This document shows, piece by piece, positions 1,734 to 33,234 of a stretch of 64,000 nt of DNA; position 1 is the stretch's first letter; each line of letters starts with the position of its first letter. This DNA comes from Bacteroidota bacterium (lineage in GTDB: Bacteria; Bacteroidota; Bacteroidia; Cytophagales; Cyclobacteriaceae). Location of the stretch: the NCBI GenBank assembly GCA_016866235.1, contig VGMW01000001.1, forward strand, positions 248,001 through 312,000, read 5' to 3'. The notes below the pieces were generated by a model. That model made no database searches and had not been told where the DNA came from. It saw only the letters and a program-made list of their open reading frames with translations. The translations under genes were made by a program, and so were the position numbers.

Positions 1734-3629
1734 ATGTGTGGTTTAGTAGGATACTTTGCTCCCTCAGGCACCTTGCATGAGGATTCTTTTCGCGCTTCTT
1801 TGCAAGCGATTGCTCATAGGGGTCCGGATGATGAAGGAATTAACTATTTCGAAGGCACAAACGGCATAGTTTGTTTAGCTCATAGACGATTAAGCATCAT
1901 TGATTTATCGGCCAACGGTCATCAGCCATTCTTCGATAACACTGGCCGTTATGCAATGGTTTACAACGGGGAAGTCTTCAATTATACGGAACTTCGTACC
2001 GATCTGGAAGCTTTGGGTATTACTTTCCGAACTAAAACTGATACCGAGGTAGTCCTTGAGTCTTGGAAATACTGGGGTAACGATTGTTGGCGGAAATTCA
2101 CGGGTATGTTTAGCGTGGTGATTTATGATAGGAAGATTCAAAACTTAGTGATGGCTAGAGACCCCTTTGGTATAAAGCCATTGTATTATCGGTGTGAACA
2201 AAATTCTGTTTTTTTTGCTTCGGAAATCCCTGCATTGATCAAATTATTACCATCGCGTCATTATCTAAATATTCAGAGGGCAATTGAATATCTTGTCTTT
2301 GATAATTATGATAATGACGAAAAGACATTTTTCGAAGGAGTATCTCAACTTCTACCAGGTCATTTCTTGTCGTTTGATTTATCGAAAGATCTTTTAAAAA
2401 CGCATCCAGTAAGATGGTGGATACCGGACATAGCACAAAGAACAACATTAACTTTTACAGAGGCGACTGAAAAGTTGAGAGAGCTTTTTTTACAAAGTGT
2501 CAGATTGCATTTACGTAGCGATGTTCCGGTAGGTGCTGCCCTTTCTGGGGGTATAGACTCTTCTTCAGTGGTTTGTGCAATGCGTTATCTCGAACAAGAG
2601 ATGCCAATACATACTTTTACCTATGTTGCAGCCGGCACTAATCTCAATGAAGAAAATTGGGCTGATTTTGTAAATAAACGGGTTAATGCGAATGTCAACA
2701 AGGTCTACATTCAGTCGGATGATCTATTGAAAGATCTAACCGATTTAATTAGGACTCAGGGAGAGCCATTCAGTGGAACAAGTATTTATGCACAGTATCG
2801 AATCTTTAAGCGCGCCAAAGAAAAAGGGATTAAAGTAACCCTCGATGGCCAGGGAGCTGATGAGTTGCTGGGTGGTTATTACGGCTATCCTGAGAGGAGG
2901 ATTCGGAGTTTTATGGCCTCCAATAGCTGGATTAGGGCCCTTAATTTTTCGAAAAACTGGGCTGGGCGTTTGGAACGCAGTGCTTCTGAACCTTGGCTAC
3001 ATGCTATTGCTTCCATGATGCCCGAGAAAATGTTATTTAGACTGGCTAGGCTGCTTGGAAAGGTTGAGATCCCTTCATGGCTAGATCTTAAAATGCTTAA
3101 GAATCAGGGAGTAGTCCTGAATTCACCAAAAACTGCTAGCGTGGTCAATTCTAGGGATCGAAAACTTATGGAGCAATTGGCCAATGAATTAATAGCGCTA
3201 AGGATTCCAAGGTTATTGAGATACGCCGACAGAAATTCCATGCGGTTTTCAATTGAAAGCAGGGTGCCATTTTTAACTATTGACTTGGCTAATTTTATGT
3301 ACGGACTTCCTGAGGAATTTTTGGTATCTGATAAAGCAGAATCTAAGCACATATTTAGAGAAGCTATGCGAGGCATAGTTCCAAATGAAATCCTAGATCG
3401 AAAAGATAAAATTGGATTTGAAACTCCAGAGAGAGAATTGATAAAAAAAATGGGTTTAATATTTAATGATAACTTATTGTCGCTGGGTAAGTTGCCGTTT
3501 TTGAAAACAGAATTATTGACCAAGCAATACAACGACGCCTTTTTTGATTCTCCTAGCTTGAATAATCGTCATTGGAGAATAATAAATCTGATAATTTGGA
3601 TGAATATTTTTGATGTGCAATGCAAATAG
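1734..3629 (+). CDS. asnB: Asparagine synthase (glutamine-hydrolysing) family protein
   Basis: The 631-residue protein starts MCGLVGYF, leaving Cys2 as the N-terminal nucleophile of a class II glutamine amidotransferase domain (about residues 2-190). The C-terminal synthetase domain has the PP-loop LSGGIDSSS near residue 268 for AMP/PPi binding. The family moves glutamine-derived ammonia onto a carboxylate. Within polysaccharide loci, AsnB paralogues are widespread and are thought to amidate sugar acids or peptide substituents instead of making asparagine. Its position just before glycosyltransferase and sugar-amidation genes favours that role, but free asparagine synthesis cannot be excluded. 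Length and domain order are normal for the family. Confidence 0.88.
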   Translation: MCGLVGYFAPSGTLHEDSFRASLQAIAHRGPDDEGINYFEGTNGIVCLAHRRLSIIDLSANGHQPFFDNTGRYAMVYNGEVFNYTELRTDLEALGITFRTKTDTEVVLESWKYWGNDCWRKFTGMFSVVIYDRKIQNLVMARDPFGIKPLYYRCEQNSVFFASEIPALIKLLPSRHYLNIQRAIEYLVFDNYDNDEKTFFEGVSQLLPGHFLSFDLSKDLLKTHPVRWWIPDIAQRTTLTFTEATEKLRELFLQSVRLHLRSDVPVGAALSGGIDSSSVVCAMRYLEQEMPIHTFTYVAAGTNLNEENWADFVNKRVNANVNKVYIQSDDLLKDLTDLIRTQGEPFSGTSIYAQYRIFKRAKEKGIKVTLDGQGADELLGGYYGYPERRIRSFMASNSWIRALNFSKNWAGRLERSASEPWLHAIASMMPEKMLFRLARLLGKVEIPSWLDLKMLKNQGVVLNSPKTASVVNSRDRKLMEQLANELIALRIPRLLRYADRNSMRFSIESRVPFLTIDLANFMYGLPEEFLVSDKAESKHIFREAMRGIVPNEILDRKDKIGFETPERELIKKMGLIFNDNLLSLGKLPFLKTELLTKQYNDAFFDSPSLNNRHWRIINLIIWMNIFDVQCK

Positions 3630-29669: not shown

Positions 29670-30740
29670 ATGAATTTTCAGTTGGATTTGGCGGCCGCAT
29701 TGACTTCATACGTTCCTTCAGTTCTTTTGTTTCCTGTTTTTACGAAACTTCTACACAGGTGGCAATTGATGGATGAACCTGATGAAAGGAAAATGCATAC
29801 AAGACGCACTCCTGCCTACGGAGGCTTATTAATTTTTGTGGGTTATCTTCTTTCTGTCATTATCTGGACGCCTTTCAGCGAATGGTATCATCTAAAGTTT
29901 ATTATTCTTACTCAAGCTATAATGGTTTTATTTGGTTTAAGGGATGATTGGACCGAGCTTAAACCTTTAGAAAAGCTTTCAGGTCAGATTTTAGCTTCTT
30001 TTATTATTATCTTTTTAGTCGATGTTCGAATTGAAGGATTTTATGGCTTGATTTCGGAGAATGCATTCCATTCCATACCAAGCTTTGGAATTTCGTTACT
30101 TGTAATTATTGGTCTTATAAATGCTTTTAATCTGATTGATGGCATAGACGGATTGGCTGGAAGTATTGGTGCTTTGGCTTTATTTTTCTTTGGTGTTTGG
30201 TTCAGTCTGCTCGGGCAAGTAACTTTCGCTATACTTTCTTTTGCACTCTTAGGGGCAATAATGGCATTCCTTTTCTTTAACTGGCAGCCCGCCAGTATTT
30301 TTATGGGTGATACGGGATCACTATTTATTGGTGTAACTGTTGCAACCATTGCACTGAAAGCGATGAATTTAAATTATGAATTGCCATCCGGTCATTTTGC
30401 TAAATTTGAAAACACCATTACTATTGGACTTTGTATTTTATGCTTTCCTATTTTTGATACAATTAGGGTAATGTTGATTCGTACTATTATTAATGGCACA
30501 TCTCCTTTTAGACCAGATCGAAGACATATTCATCATTTATTGGTAGATCGAGGACTTAGTCATCAGCAGGTTGTATTTCTTATTTTCACCTTCAATTTAA
30601 TTTTAATACTTGCTGCTATTATTTTTCGAAATTTTGAAGATATAAACACGCTACCCATTTTGCTCGTTATTCTATTATTGTTATCGTCGATACTTAATAG
30701 ATTAAAAAAGGTTGAATCCACTCCTGCTAATATTGAATAG
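29670..30740 (+). CDS. MraY/WecA-family undecaprenyl-phosphate sugar-1-phosphate transferase
   Basis: The 356-residue polytopic protein has the family motifs DEPDERKMHTRRTPAYGGLLIF, FGLRDDWTEL (catalytic Asp pair), NAFNLIDGIDGLAGSIG, MGDTGSLFIG and a cytoplasmic RPDRRHIHHLL loop. These enzymes (WecA, TagO, WbpL) move GlcNAc-1-P or a related sugar phosphate from UDP onto undecaprenyl phosphate. It is the second initiating enzyme in the locus after 14076, of an unrelated fold. It may start a different polymer, or one of the two may be the real primer for this cluster. It is the last gene of the locus. Confidence 0.9.
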   Translation: MNFQLDLAAALTSYVPSVLLFPVFTKLLHRWQLMDEPDERKMHTRRTPAYGGLLIFVGYLLSVIIWTPFSEWYHLKFIILTQAIMVLFGLRDDWTELKPLEKLSGQILASFIIIFLVDVRIEGFYGLISENAFHSIPSFGISLLVIIGLINAFNLIDGIDGLAGSIGALALFFFGVWFSLLGQVTFAILSFALLGAIMAFLFFNWQPASIFMGDTGSLFIGVTVATIALKAMNLNYELPSGHFAKFENTITIGLCILCFPIFDTIRVMLIRTIINGTSPFRPDRRHIHHLLVDRGLSHQQVVFLIFTFNLILILAAIIFRNFEDINTLPILLVILLLLSSILNRLKKVESTPANIE

Positions 30741-30970
30741 GTAAATAAAGCAAAGTGCATTGGATAAATTCCCTTTCATCGTGAACGATCGATAACTAGG
30801 TAACCACTCGTTTATAATTCTTTCTTAACTGAAGGTTAATTCTACGTTTTCGTGAGTCCTTCAGGCTCTTTTAAAAAACTTTCTGTTATTTATTAAATAA
30901 ATTATTGAAGGCCCTATCCTATAATTGTATGGGGTTCATCATTAGAAGAGGAATATTATTCACTTAATAC
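30741..30970. other. Intergenic stretch between the polysaccharide locus and the GIY-YIG/tRNA array
   Basis: These 230 bases are AT-rich. I see no ORF above a dozen codons, no clear terminator with T-run and no tRNA-like fold. The right border marks the sudden start of the 335-bp repeat at about 30973, inside what would be the middle of a GIY-YIG gene. Confidence 0.4.
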
Positions 30971-31105
30971 ATGTACACGAAGGGCTTAAGACCATGGAAA
31001 CTTTTCTTTTTAGAAAGCTTTCCTGATTGGTCGGCGGGACGTAAAAGAGAAATATATTTGAAGTCTGGTGTCGGAAAGGAATTCCTTAAATCTCAGGTCC
31101 CGTAG
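30971..31105 (+). pseudogene. GIY-YIG endonuclease, 5'-truncated copy 1
   Basis: Only the C-terminal 44 codons remain (TKGLRPWKLFF onward to LKSQVP), after a chance ATG at the repeat border. The two GIY-YIG strands and the catalytic Arg region are missing, so it cannot be an active nuclease. Its stop codon lies in the first tRNA-like sequence. Confidence 0.75.
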
Positions 31106-31182
31106 TTCAACGGATAGAATAGAAGTTTCCTAAACTTTTGATCCTGGTTCCCTGCCTGCCGGCAGGCAGGGATTCTGGGCGG
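31096..31182 (+). pseudogene. tRNA-Arg(CCT)-like sequence 1 with palindrome in the T-loop
   Basis: The first 48 bases equal the intact tRNA at 31766 (acceptor 5' strand, D-arm, anticodon arm with CCT). The T-stem is changed to CCTGG/CTGGG, which still pairs with two G-T wobbles. The T-loop TTC...GATT is split by inserted bases that form a 24-bp palindrome. After GGGCGG the sequence diverges, so the acceptor stem cannot close. It should not work as a tRNA. Confidence 0.8.
31149..31172. repeat. Perfect 24-bp palindrome, copy 1
   Basis: TCCCTGCCTGCC at 31149-31160 is followed at once by its exact reverse complement to 31172. It is GC-rich in AT-rich surroundings and interrupts the T-loop of the tRNA-like sequence by 20 bases. 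It looks like a REP-type palindromic element; copy number elsewhere in the genome is unknown. Confidence 0.85.
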
Positions 31183-31200
31183 TAAAAATTATTTATTTGA

Positions 31201-31440
31201 ATGGTTGAGGTTTACGCGATAATGAGTGAGTCATGTAAAGAGATTTATGTTGGGATGGCTCGAAGTGCTGTTAAAAGACTCAAGGAACATAATGCGGGAA
31301 AGAACAGGTACACGAAGGGCTTAAGACCATGGAAACTTTTCTTTTTAGAAAGCTTTCCTGATTGGTCGACGGGACGTAAAAGAGAAATATATTTGAAGTC
31401 TGGTGTCGGAAAGGAATTCCTTAAATCTCAGGTCCCGTAG
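31201..31440 (+). CDS. Mini GIY-YIG nuclease family protein, copy 2 (only full-length copy)
   Basis: The 79-residue protein has the GIY-YIG core: VYAIMSESCKEIYVGMA (first and second strands, with VYA and YVG in place of GIY and YIG), then SAVKRLKEHNAGKNRYTKG with the catalytic Arg region, and RKREIYLKSGVGKEFLKS with the conserved Glu. This is the short stand-alone UPF0213/YhbQ-like form that is frequent in Bacteroidota. The family cuts DNA in a divalent metal-dependent way; targets are unknown. A TGA directly precedes ATG 31201, so the start is firm. The last two codons and the stop TAG are inside the next tRNA-like sequence. Confidence 0.85.
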   Translation: MVEVYAIMSESCKEIYVGMARSAVKRLKEHNAGKNRYTKGLRPWKLFFLESFPDWSTGRKREIYLKSGVGKEFLKSQVP

Positions 31441-31517
31441 TTCAACGGATAGAATAGAAGTTTCCTAAACTTTTGATCCTGGTTCCCTGCCTGCCGGCAG
31501 GCAGGGATTCTGGGCGG
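31431..31517 (+). pseudogene. tRNA-Arg(CCT)-like sequence 2 with palindrome in the T-loop
   Basis: This is identical in layout to the copy 335 bases upstream: a normal 5' half with anticodon CCT, an altered but pairable T-stem, an inserted palindrome in the T-loop, and loss of the acceptor 3' strand. It follows the full-length GIY-YIG ORF, whose stop lies at its bases 8-10. Confidence 0.8.
31484..31507. repeat. Perfect 24-bp palindrome, copy 2
   Basis: Same sequence as at 31149-31172, exactly 335 bases downstream, again inside the T-loop of a tRNA-like sequence. As RNA it would form a 10-12 bp GC-rich hairpin. Confidence 0.85.
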
Positions 31518-31556
31518 TAAAAATTATTTATTTGAAAGATTGAGGTTTACGCGATA

Positions 31557-31775
31557 ATGAGTGAGTCATGTAAAGAGATTTACGTTGGGATGGCTCGAAG
31601 TGCTGTTAAAAGACTTAAGGAACATAATGCGGGAAAGAACAGGTACACGAAGGGCTTAAGACCATGGAAACTTTTCTTTTTAGAAAGCTTTCCTGATTGG
31701 TCGACGGAACGTAAAAGAGAAATATATTTGAAGTCTGGTGTCGGAAAGGAATTCCTTAAATCTCAGGTCCCGTAG
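31557..31775 (+). pseudogene. GIY-YIG endonuclease, copy 3, start codon lost
   Basis: At the place of the copy 2 ATG (31201) this copy has AAG (31536), preceded by a TGA stop, because of two base changes (AATGG to AAAGA). The first usable ATG is 31557, giving 72 residues that lack the first GIY strand (VYAI). The rest is nearly identical to copy 2. An ATT at 31539 could be a rare start. It is probably inactive or poorly made. Its stop codon lies 10 bases inside the intact tRNA-Arg. Confidence 0.65.
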
Positions 31776-31837
31776 TTCAACGGATAGAATAGAAGTTTCC
31801 TAAACTTTTGATCCCAGTTCGATTCTGGGCGGGACTA
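31766..31837 (+). tRNA. tRNA-Arg (anticodon CCT)
   Basis: Folded by eye, 72 bases: acceptor GGTCCCG with CGGGACT (one G-T pair), D-stem GTTC/GAAT, anticodon stem GAAGT/ACTTT with loop TTCCTAA so the anticodon is CCT at 31799-31801, a 4-base variable region, T-stem CCCAG/CTGGG with loop TTCGATT, and discriminator A. CCA is not encoded. It reads AGG codons. The first 10 bases overlap the 3' end of the GIY-YIG copy 3 frame. Confidence 0.95.
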
Positions 31838-31854
31838 CAATAAAATAAGATTCC

Positions 31855-33234
31855 TCACCGCTGCGAAGGAAAACTCATCGTAACGGTAGTTCCGGAGTTC
31901 TCCTTACTCTCGATAATTACGGTGCCACCATGGATCTCTACAAATTGCTTAACAACCACCAGGCCCATGCCGGTGCCCTGAATGCCGGAAACATTGGATG
32001 CGCGATAGAAGGTCTGGAATAACTTGCTTTTCTCTGCGTCCGGAATCCCAATACCATAATCCCTAAGCACCACCCTTACCTCACCCGGCTCAAAAATCAA
32101 GCTCATTTCAGGGGCAGCAGCATCCTTTGAATATTTTAATGCATTGCTGATCAGGTTGCTGAAAATATGGGTCAACAACGCTGCATCACCACTAAATGGC
32201 CTGCTTTGACCCATAACCCTCAAAACAACCTCCCTGGGATCGTTCCAGTTTGATTTGTTTTGAATCATATCCCGAACAAAATTCACCAAATCCAGATCCT
32301 CCGGCTGATAGGTGATCTTACCAGACTCAAACCGCCCCATCAACAAAATATCGTCCATAAGTCGGGTCAGCTTGGAAATCTCTGTGGTAATCCTGCCCAA
32401 ATGTTTTTCAAGCTTATCCTTATGATCCCCTACAACGTCGCCCAACTTAATGGCCAGCAATTCCGCATTGGCCTGAATGGTGGTAAGCGGTGTTCTGAAT
32501 TCATGAGAGGTCATCGAAACCAGCCTTGACTTCAATTCCGTTAATTCTTTTTCTTTTTCCAGTGCTCGACGGAGATCCTCCTCTGCTTTTTTCCTGATGT
32601 TGATGGTATTGGCAAGTATATCGTTTGCCCTTCTGAGATTTCTTTCTGTTTCCTTTTGCTGCGTGATGTTTACCACTGATCCATCATAAACATCAATAAG
32701 GCCGTTTCTGGCCACCTTAACCATACTGATCAACACCCAGATTCGTCCCTGAGGACCACCCTTCATTTGCGTCTCCTCATTTTTGAGGACGCCATTTATC
32801 TCCAAAATCGATTTAAGTGTAAACCAGGTTTCCGGATCAGCAAAAAATCCTTCAATGGTCTGGCCGGTCAGGTCCTGCCATTGATCTGAGCTGACCAACC
32901 CCACAAATGCCCTATTGGCAAATAGAATTCTTCCGTTGGATTCAAGTCTGAAAACGCCTTCACTCAGGTTCTCGTTAATTGATTTCAGGATTTGCTCACT
33001 TTCCGATAGACGCTCCAGCGCCTGAGCCTTTTCTAATCTTATTTTTTCATTGAGCGCAGTTAATTCGCCGGAAGTCAACTCCAGCGAACGCTCAAGCAAT
33101 TCCCTGTCGCGCTCAGAAAATCTGTACGTTTCATTTACGGCCTGCAAAAATTCCTGTATACCGGGATCATCGGTTTTCCCGTCCAGAAATTTTTGTATTT
33201 GCCGCTTAAGCGTTTTCGAAAATTCTTCGGCCAT
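31855..33234 (-). CDS. PAS-domain sensor histidine kinase (soluble)
   Basis: The 459-residue protein has no membrane segment. A coiled coil covers about residues 35-85 and a PAS domain about residues 85-200 (EGVFRLESNGRILFANRAFV). A second coil leads to the HisKA dimer domain with phospho-acceptor His244 in SHEFRTPL. The ATPase domain has FSNLISNALKYS, DYGIGIP and GTGMGLVVVKQF. It autophosphorylates in the cytoplasm; no response regulator is next to it. Its start overlaps the stop of the FIST gene by one base, so the FIST protein is probably its signal partner. A phosphotransfer target must be encoded elsewhere. Confidence 0.92.
   Translation of the reverse strand: MAEEFSKTLKRQIQKFLDGKTDDPGIQEFLQAVNETYRFSERDRELLERSLELTSGELTALNEKIRLEKAQALERLSESEQILKSINENLSEGVFRLESNGRILFANRAFVGLVSSDQWQDLTGQTIEGFFADPETWFTLKSILEINGVLKNEETQMKGGPQGRIWVLISMVKVARNGLIDVYDGSVVNITQQKETERNLRRANDILANTINIRKKAEEDLRRALEKEKELTELKSRLVSMTSHEFRTPLTTIQANAELLAIKLGDVVGDHKDKLEKHLGRITTEISKLTRLMDDILLMGRFESGKITYQPEDLDLVNFVRDMIQNKSNWNDPREVVLRVMGQSRPFSGDAALLTHIFSNLISNALKYSKDAAAPEMSLIFEPGEVRVVLRDYGIGIPDAEKSKLFQTFYRASNVSGIQGTGMGLVVVKQFVEIHGGTVIIESKENSGTTVTMSFPSQR

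Follow-up and report, generated by a model that had tools for sequence, protein, structure and literature searches.

Why should a bacterial chromosome carry copies of a miniature GIY-YIG nuclease gene in tandem, each running into tRNA-Arg sequence, with a single intact tRNA at the end of the series? The question is raised by a locus in a 64,000-nucleotide stretch of a Bacteroidota bacterium of the Cyclobacteriaceae (assembly GCA_016866235.1, contig VGMW01000001.1, positions 248,001 to 312,000 of the forward strand), the whole of which is here called the window. From comparisons of sequence we think that the array is probably a tandemly amplified minimal selfish element, of the free-standing, homing-like GIY-YIG kind, living in tRNA genes of Bacteroidota. 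Such an element would consist of one small GIY-YIG gene (about 80-100 codons) and a piece of its own target tRNA gene. The array has the following parts, in coordinates of the window.

30969-31303, plus strand: array unit 1, truncated on its left within the open reading frame (ORF) (TRF, repeat search)
30971-31105, plus strand: C-terminal half of a mini GIY-YIG ORF in unit 1, 44 residues (PF01541, E 0.0015, 19.2 bits, under the cut-off of 22.6)
31096-31182, plus strand: spare tRNA-Arg(CCT) copy 1 (sequence read; partial match to tRNA positions 1-55; Rfam tRNA 22.5 bits, cut-off 29)
31151-31170, plus strand: perfect 20-bp palindrome CCTGCCTGCCGGCAGGCAGG in the T-loop (TTC^GA) of spare copy 1 (repeat and exact-match search)
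31201-31440, plus strand: full-length mini GIY-YIG nuclease ORF of unit 2, 79 residues (PF01541, E 3.8e-14)
31431-31517, plus strand: spare tRNA-Arg(CCT) copy 2, made up as copy 1 (partial match; Rfam 22.5 bits, cut-off 29)
31486-31505, plus strand: palindrome CCTGCCTGCCGGCAGGCAGG in the T-loop of spare copy 2 (repeat and exact-match search)
31557-31775, plus strand: GIY-YIG ORF of unit 3, 72 residues from an internal ATG (ORF list; PF01541, E 4.4e-11)
31766-31838, plus strand: intact tRNA-Arg, anticodon CCT (ARAGORN; Rfam 61.6 bits)

The tandem array spans 30969-31814 with a period of 335, 2.5 copies (as in the assembly) and 98% matches according to the repeat finder TRF; counted in the frame starting at 30973, 5 of the 335 bases distinguish units 1 and 2, and 6 do so in the TRF frame, so that the spacing and the five differences given in an earlier note on this DNA are both reproduced. 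An assembly artefact or chance repeat is unlikely here, the units differing from each other at 5-6 of 335 bases. The same note had placed a mini GIY-YIG ORF in each unit. GIY-YIG sequence is indeed present in all three, but a complete ORF beginning with ATG is confined to unit 2: unit 1 retains the C-terminal half, and unit 3 has no ATG where unit 2 starts, its first in-frame ATG (31557) lying past the GIY tyrosine. The stop codon (TAG) of each array ORF, including the truncated one of unit 1, falls inside a tRNA 5' end. A genome-wide search for tRNA-Arg(CCT) gave one full match (31766-31838) and two partial ones, the spare copies, in agreement with the claim that the last tRNA alone is intact. 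The tRNA sequence reported at the unit ends is also there, not as short 5' pieces but as near-complete copies (about positions 1-67 of 73) with the 3' end replaced by other sequence. Each consists of tRNA positions 1-55, the palindrome and the 3' part of the T-arm to about position 67, with no acceptor 3' end. The GIY-YIG ORFs are the sole ORFs of at least 40 residues within the array, and the ORF list contains no integrase gene in the element. The array ORF lies between tRNA copies, outside any intron or intein; the intact tRNA is contiguous, and an Rfam scan of 30700-32000 revealed no group I intron in the tRNA, its matches being the three tRNAs and two sub-threshold mir-127 matches.

The same genome contains a second array of this type. 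PF01541 matches were found at eight places, two in large ORFs, two in the tRNA-Arg array, two in a tRNA-Val(TAC) array, one in a further mini GIY-YIG ORF 170 bp from a tRNA-Met and one in a broken mini GIY-YIG ORF with no tRNA nearby.

Contig C2, locus L011, about 1990-3240, minus strand: tRNA-Val(TAC) array, period 373 (repeat search, tRNA and domain calls)

Its order is intact tRNA, ORF, 3' tRNA piece, ORF, 3' tRNA piece and partial ORF, preceded by four ORF-less tRNA-Val-like copies of 80 bp. By eye, a palindrome (CCCGACTT/AAGTCGGG) replaces the anticodon arm in all six spare Val copies, and it is confined to this array (6 places in the genome at up to one mismatch). The Arg palindrome, on which the earlier note is silent, is equally local: exact CCTGCCTGCCGGCAGGCAGG occurs in the 2.77-Mb genome just at 31151-31170 and 31486-31505, and a genome-wide dispersed repeat was accordingly rejected for the source genome.

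The earlier note had set recurrent association with tRNA ends in other genomes as its test beforehand, and this association was found, far beyond tRNA-Arg. We examined 29 genomes (the source, 18 of the same genus and 10 of the same order) in which GIY-YIG domains were selected by Pfam match with tRNAs ignored, yielding 105 rows: 95 mini domains (open frame below 250 residues) and 10 larger ones, with other large-frame rows left out. An intact tRNA lies within 150 bp of 48 of the 95 mini domains, within 300 bp of 50, within 600 bp of 61 and within 1400 bp of 62, and in all 62 cases the nearest tRNA is on the same strand as the domain. None of nine UvrC-like genes (about 600 codons) in this set is tRNA-associated, and one of the 10 larger-frame rows (286 residues) is. 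Across the phylum, 92 of 148 Bacteroidota genomes match our nuclease profile A1 at E 1e-8. A phylum set of 85 loci was assembled from 29 automatically chosen loci and 56 places from the top of the listed A1 matches; 64 of its 126 domains lie within 100 bp of a tRNA and 102 within 800 bp, at 73 of the 85 loci, a rate biased upward by a profile built almost wholly from tRNA-associated proteins, a selection of which the genus/order set is free. All 102 domains are on the strand of their tRNA, and 26 anticodons are represented. Two or more same-strand domains, partial ones included, occur at 24 loci, with a maximum of eight (L186); arrays of an ORF with its tRNA piece are common.

In a tree of 83 proteins (those with at least 55 residues among 96), which like the second protein tree below has few columns and leaves many forks unresolved, 17 of the non-associated proteins form one clade without tRNAs. 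These mini GIY-YIG proteins of about 100 residues (L025, L027, L030, L032, L033, L055, L086, L087 and others) are encoded between direct repeats of the surrounding sequence: left and right flanks align with each other at a score of at least 40 in 13 of 17 loci, compared with 1 of 17 in a control pairing; this clade may serve dispersed repeats. Several other non-associated mini ORFs lie, by eye, at contig edges or beside tRNA pieces or an apparent 3' end of transfer-messenger RNA (tmRNA). At L058 (G007:C4, about 1340-1900), again by eye, a mini GIY-YIG ORF lies between an apparent tmRNA 3' end and a second partial copy of that end, and tmRNA genes may also be targets. The eight-copy array of L186 (G081:C34, 1300-4500) is situated beside an apparent tRNA-Met without its 5' half (by eye), and ARAGORN found no intact tRNA in this locus. 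At L080, L085, L099, L104, L028 and L166 several draft contigs start or stop within or near such an ORF or its tRNA, and assemblies may thus often fragment or collapse the arrays. The arrays themselves are unlikely to be mere assembly artefacts because a relative assembled as one contig (G160) has two separate three-copy arrays.

What is the arrangement of an element when it is not repeated? Two layouts were recognized. In class A, to which the window array belongs, a 5' tRNA piece is followed by the ORF and the intact tRNA; class B is its mirror image, with the intact tRNA, the ORF and a 3' tRNA piece. At sites whose tRNA is no more than 200 bp away, the expected piece (score at least 30) was found on the far side in 14/14 class A sites of the genus set and 14/17 of the phylum set, and in 20/32 and 48/53 class B sites, respectively, as against 0/46 and 0/70 with shuffled tRNAs. 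The broken tRNA left per copy and the one intact tRNA kept, as proposed for the window, thus correspond to the common layout, in which the ORF is flanked by an intact tRNA and, opposite it, by a fragment of that tRNA. The best match of class A pieces begins at the first tRNA base in 25/28, and that of class B pieces ends at the last tRNA base in 50/68. Such conservation of the outer end is consistent with an insertion after which one side of the tRNA is reconstituted. Full tandem duplication followed by random decay of one tRNA is not preferred, given the exact outer ends of the remnants, and single cases may be so.

The proteins encoded in these elements are mostly 79-100 residues long. In the 79-residue unit 2 protein the Pfam match spans residues 4-67, and Y5, Y16, G18, R26 and H30, invariant in alignment A1, are all present together with the nearly invariant E62 and K66, which we take to be the catalytic residues; at the nearly invariant A58 it has G. 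The solved sequences closest to profile A1 belong to the UPF0213 family, namely 1zg2 (BH0048, E 3.1e-18, positions 1-68 of 70) and 1ywl (EF2693, E 1e-16). After UPF0213, the next closest relatives of known structure are the structure-specific SLX1 nucleases, and with these as kin the present enzymes may recognize folded DNA. Single-sequence structure prediction was poor (mean predicted local distance difference test score 53) and was not used. The ratio of nonsynonymous to synonymous substitution rates (dN/dS) is below 1 in 77/77 nuclease pairs (median 0.29), 28 of which come from one eight-copy array and several of which repeat identical copies; in that array (L186) it is 0.07-0.29 in 27/28 pairs and 0.50 in one. 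The nuclease ORFs evolve under purifying selection.

Across host families, a nuclease lineage tends to stay with one tRNA isotype. A second tree contains 118 nucleases of at least 60 residues, each locus and tRNA being represented once and the tRNA lying at most 400 bp away; it has 70 columns, with poor resolution of the deep forks, and requires 36 changes of isotype label, with a possible minimum of 13 and a shuffled mean of 81.4 (0/200 shuffles as low); host-family labels require 53, with a minimum of 11 and 64.0 on shuffling. Nuclease lineages follow tRNA isotype far more than host family. The best match of the window nuclease in a contig scan, 67% identical, comes from Terrimonas pollutisoli of the order Chitinophagales (the window belongs to the Cytophagales), where it lies at a tRNA-Arg(CCT) with the layout and palindrome of the window; three Arg-associated homologues from the window's own genus are 53-56% identical to the window nuclease. 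All eight loci recovered in that scan adjoin a tRNA (within 528 bp), which is Arg in four and Glu in four; two of the eight come from genomes already represented by two of the three query rows. Phages and plasmids were considered as carriers using the window protein and a three-row Arg alignment (A2) alone as queries, the other isotype lineages not being included; the window protein matches weakly in 10 Rhizobium phage records (35.9-37.5% identity) and has no match in plasmids, and no match of A2 was confirmed in viral contigs. Carriage by either was set aside for the Arg lineage.

Occupancy within the genus is patchy. An intact tRNA-Arg(CCT) was retrieved from 22 genomes of the genus; it is accompanied by a GIY-YIG ORF in 4 (the source genome G000, G001, G006, G181) and by none in the other 18, and G006 has an additional copy of this tRNA without an adjoining GIY-YIG ORF. 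Patchy occupancy and isotype fidelity are compatible with homing into alleles lacking the gene. With nucleases close to tRNA genes in many genomes and their lineages clustering by isotype, the cognate tRNA gene is the putative target. We envisage that the nuclease would cut, or bind and open, its cognate tRNA gene, whereupon repair guided by tRNA homology would insert the ORF. The tRNA sequence brought by the element would restore one intact tRNA, allowing the host to survive, and the displaced piece would persist in broken form. Tandem arrays such as the present one would arise afterwards from recombination of tRNA copies with each other, which the nuclease may initiate in the manner of phage SegB. 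Cutting of the tRNA gene and movement of the element, as implied by the earlier note's reading, are inferences, and so are the sequence in which these steps occur and the origin and function of the hairpins described below.

A different and very unlikely account of the same loci is ordinary tandem duplication, in which an old small gene beside a tRNA was duplicated with it by unequal recombination and the spare tRNAs decayed, with no action of the nuclease. Such a process could produce the array, whose units are 98% identical with the palindrome at the matching place, and by eye the terminator past the tRNA is duplicated in some class B sites of relatives, for which purely local duplication is an equally good explanation. 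It fails on the recurrence at 26 anticodons across the phylum, on the isotype clades that span host families, on the Terrimonas match and on the hairpin inserts. Such duplication is disfavoured as a full account and is likely as the last step forming the window array.

These duplicated terminators are one of several observations that weigh against a homing-like selfish element. No clean pair of occupied and empty sites with flanks in common was found, and three proteins flanking the array have no match beside tRNA-Arg(CCT) in the 23 loci searched in relatives. No tRNA piece was detected at the score used in 12/32 genus class B, 5/53 phylum class B and 3/17 phylum class A sites. The tRNA breakpoint varies from about position 17 to 67, with no single cut site visible, and by eye the adjoining intact tRNA resembles an uncut target, with no protective change seen. 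Free-standing GIY-YIG homing endonucleases have a separate DNA-binding region beside the catalytic core, for which the 79-residue protein has no room. Host-family labels also cluster on the 118-nuclease tree (0/200 shuffles as low), so that part of the isotype signal can be descent, and for Asn, Ala and Gly the clustering is weak, with 35, 15 and 12 of 500 shuffles, respectively, reaching equally low values.

A third possibility is that the nuclease acts on tRNA as RNA, either as a host or mobile-defence enzyme that cleaves tRNA and is provided with decoy tRNAs, or as a domesticated regulator of tRNA gene dosage. Isotype fidelity would suit such a function, as would the same-strand arrangement, which permits co-transcription, purifying selection even within arrays and the addition of hairpins to spare tRNA copies. 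The characterized GIY-YIG relatives named here cut DNA, as does SegB (PMC13096335), which counts against a function on tRNA, as do the patchy presence and the lack of a partner gene in the 335-bp unit, to which the search for one was confined. We regard this function as improbable.

The palindromes inside the spare tRNAs raise the further question of which agent puts such sequences cleanly into tRNAs. GC-rich hairpins (arm at least 7, loop at most 5) are present on the far side of 23/46 genus and 34/70 phylum sites, as against 6/381 and 14/555 control windows, and on the intact-tRNA side, with the tRNA masked, of 8/46 and 10/69. When clean inserts were defined as segments of 14-62 nucleotides with at least 60% of bases paired, bounded by tRNA sequence with two matching 8-mers, 68 such hairpins were recovered in 56 loci from 168 tRNA-region pairs, and shuffled tRNAs gave an insert in 1/168 pairs. 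With loop ranges set from tRNA length rather than folded structure, 24/68 inserts lie in the T-loop range (9.2 expected), 14/68 in the D-loop range (10.3 expected) and 10/68 in the anticodon-loop range (9.2 expected); the last two are hardly enriched, so that the loop excess is a T-loop excess. Directly 5' of GA lie 23/68 inserts (5.9 expected), a number never reached in 5000 simulations, and the preference exists both within the T-loop range (12/24; 2.7 expected) and outside it (11/44; 3.8 expected). Two substitutions close to the window's own insert break the flank rule and exclude it from the 68; the insert of the tRNA-Val array likewise falls outside these limits.

A palindrome of the form CCTGCC..GGCAGG recurs in Arg elements of several host families; it is absent from an Arg(CCT) element without any hairpin (L151) and from one with another hairpin (L185). 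Exact CCTGCCTGCCGGCAGGCAGG is rare in the genus (1-3 copies in 7/30 genomes), and 4 of its 11 places in relatives are not obviously within tRNA remnants. ORF-less tRNA pieces with such hairpins were seen by eye at L211, L212 and L222. At L222 (G018:C162, about 1410-1620), where no GIY-YIG domain was found, a complete tRNA-Arg whose acceptor stem is lengthened by an inverted repeat is situated, by eye, inside the anticodon region of an older split tRNA-Arg, which also has a palindrome in its T-loop. The hairpins probably leave the spare copies useless as tRNAs and as partners in recombination or cleavage.

On these data one could turn the argument around and view the nuclease as a hairpin mobilizer comparable to the REP-associated transposases: the mini GIY-YIG enzyme would cut hairpin loops just 5' of GA and move short palindromes, tRNA genes would be preferred as a hairpin-forming landing place, and the broken tRNAs would be substrate cassettes. 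The T-loop excess, the GA preference inside and outside it, the one palindrome family accompanying Arg elements in several host families, the ORF-less hairpin-bearing pieces and the kinship to SLX1 all accord with this idea. It is weakened by the limitation of the loop excess to the T-loop range, the D- and anticodon-loop ranges being hardly enriched; moreover, 45/68 inserts lie at positions other than 5' of GA, a strong hairpin is lacking on about half of the remnant sides (L151 has none at all), and the scarcity of the exact palindrome in the genus, together with its four places not obviously in tRNA remnants, counts against it. We also know of no GIY-YIG enzyme that transposes hairpins, and consider this idea unlikely.

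A more far-reaching form of the selfish-element reading may be offered tentatively, as possible rather than probable. It would hold that these are phylum-wide minimal mobile elements in which a GIY-YIG enzyme consisting of the catalytic domain alone recognizes tRNA genes by isotype, restores the tRNA as it inserts, multiplies in tandem and tags the copies it displaces with cleanly inserted hairpins, mostly in the T-loop and 5' of GA, with the ORF-less derivatives as non-autonomous forms. Mobility of hairpins into loops is, to our knowledge, a feature of no described transposon. If tRNA-gene homing is correct, many mini GIY-YIG genes of Bacteroidota would be parasites of tRNA genes, and about 300 bp with a single gene of 80 codons could suffice for a complete selfish unit. 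Arrays of broken tRNAs, surplus tRNA fragments and the breaking of contigs at tRNAs in Bacteroidota would then be explained. The elements would also provide a chromosomal counterpart of SegB-driven tRNA amplification in phages, and would offer a source of many small nucleases, each perhaps recognizing one tRNA gene family.

How do these elements compare with known systems? The nearest precedent is SegB of phages T4 and T6, a free-standing GIY-YIG homing endonuclease from the tRNA region of these phages. Chihara et al. report that it causes a segment with tRNA-Tyr to amplify in tandem, and that the 5' end of this tRNA shares microhomology with the 3' end of segB; the gene is described there as co-localizing with tRNAs in phages, with no isotype preference reported for the SegB family (PMC13096335). 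The likeness lies in a GIY-YIG nuclease beside tRNA genes and in tandem amplification, and beside the SegB microhomology may be set the stop codon of the window ORF, which falls inside the tRNA 5' end. SegB belongs to phage genomes, whereas the present proteins, mostly within the size range given above, are encoded in bacterial chromosomes; split tRNA genes are not described in the passages covered, and the paper's text has no word starting with 'palindrom' (PMC13096335). With free-standing GIY-YIG homing endonucleases in general the elements share the GIY-YIG core and a gene outside any intron or intein; unlike those, the 79-residue protein has no separate DNA-binding region. UPF0213 proteins (1zg2, 1ywl) are similar over the whole domain and in size, and their entries are named hypothetical proteins. 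The mobile ORFs of fungal mitochondria reportedly include free-standing homing endonuclease ORFs that disrupt a gene and restore it with their own copy of the gene end; these concern protein genes on another scale, as opposed to the bacterial tRNA genes of the present elements.

The RAYT transposases of repetitive extragenic palindromic (REP) sequences are HUH/Y1 enzymes. There too small palindromes accompany a nuclease-type gene, but the present elements have PF01541 in place of a Y1/HUH transposase, and their palindromes are inside spare tRNA copies. Integrase islands insert into a tRNA gene, leaving one intact tRNA and one partial copy; the present units differ in having no integrase, a length of about 300 bp and a partial copy on either side. 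Among the matches listed in a search of the open full-text literature, with subscription papers largely and bioRxiv preprints wholly outside its scope, no description of tRNA-splitting GIY-YIG elements in bacterial chromosomes was found. By this comparison the elements could be placed as a variant of the free-standing GIY-YIG homing endonucleases, the hairpin inserts being the part that could prove categorically new.

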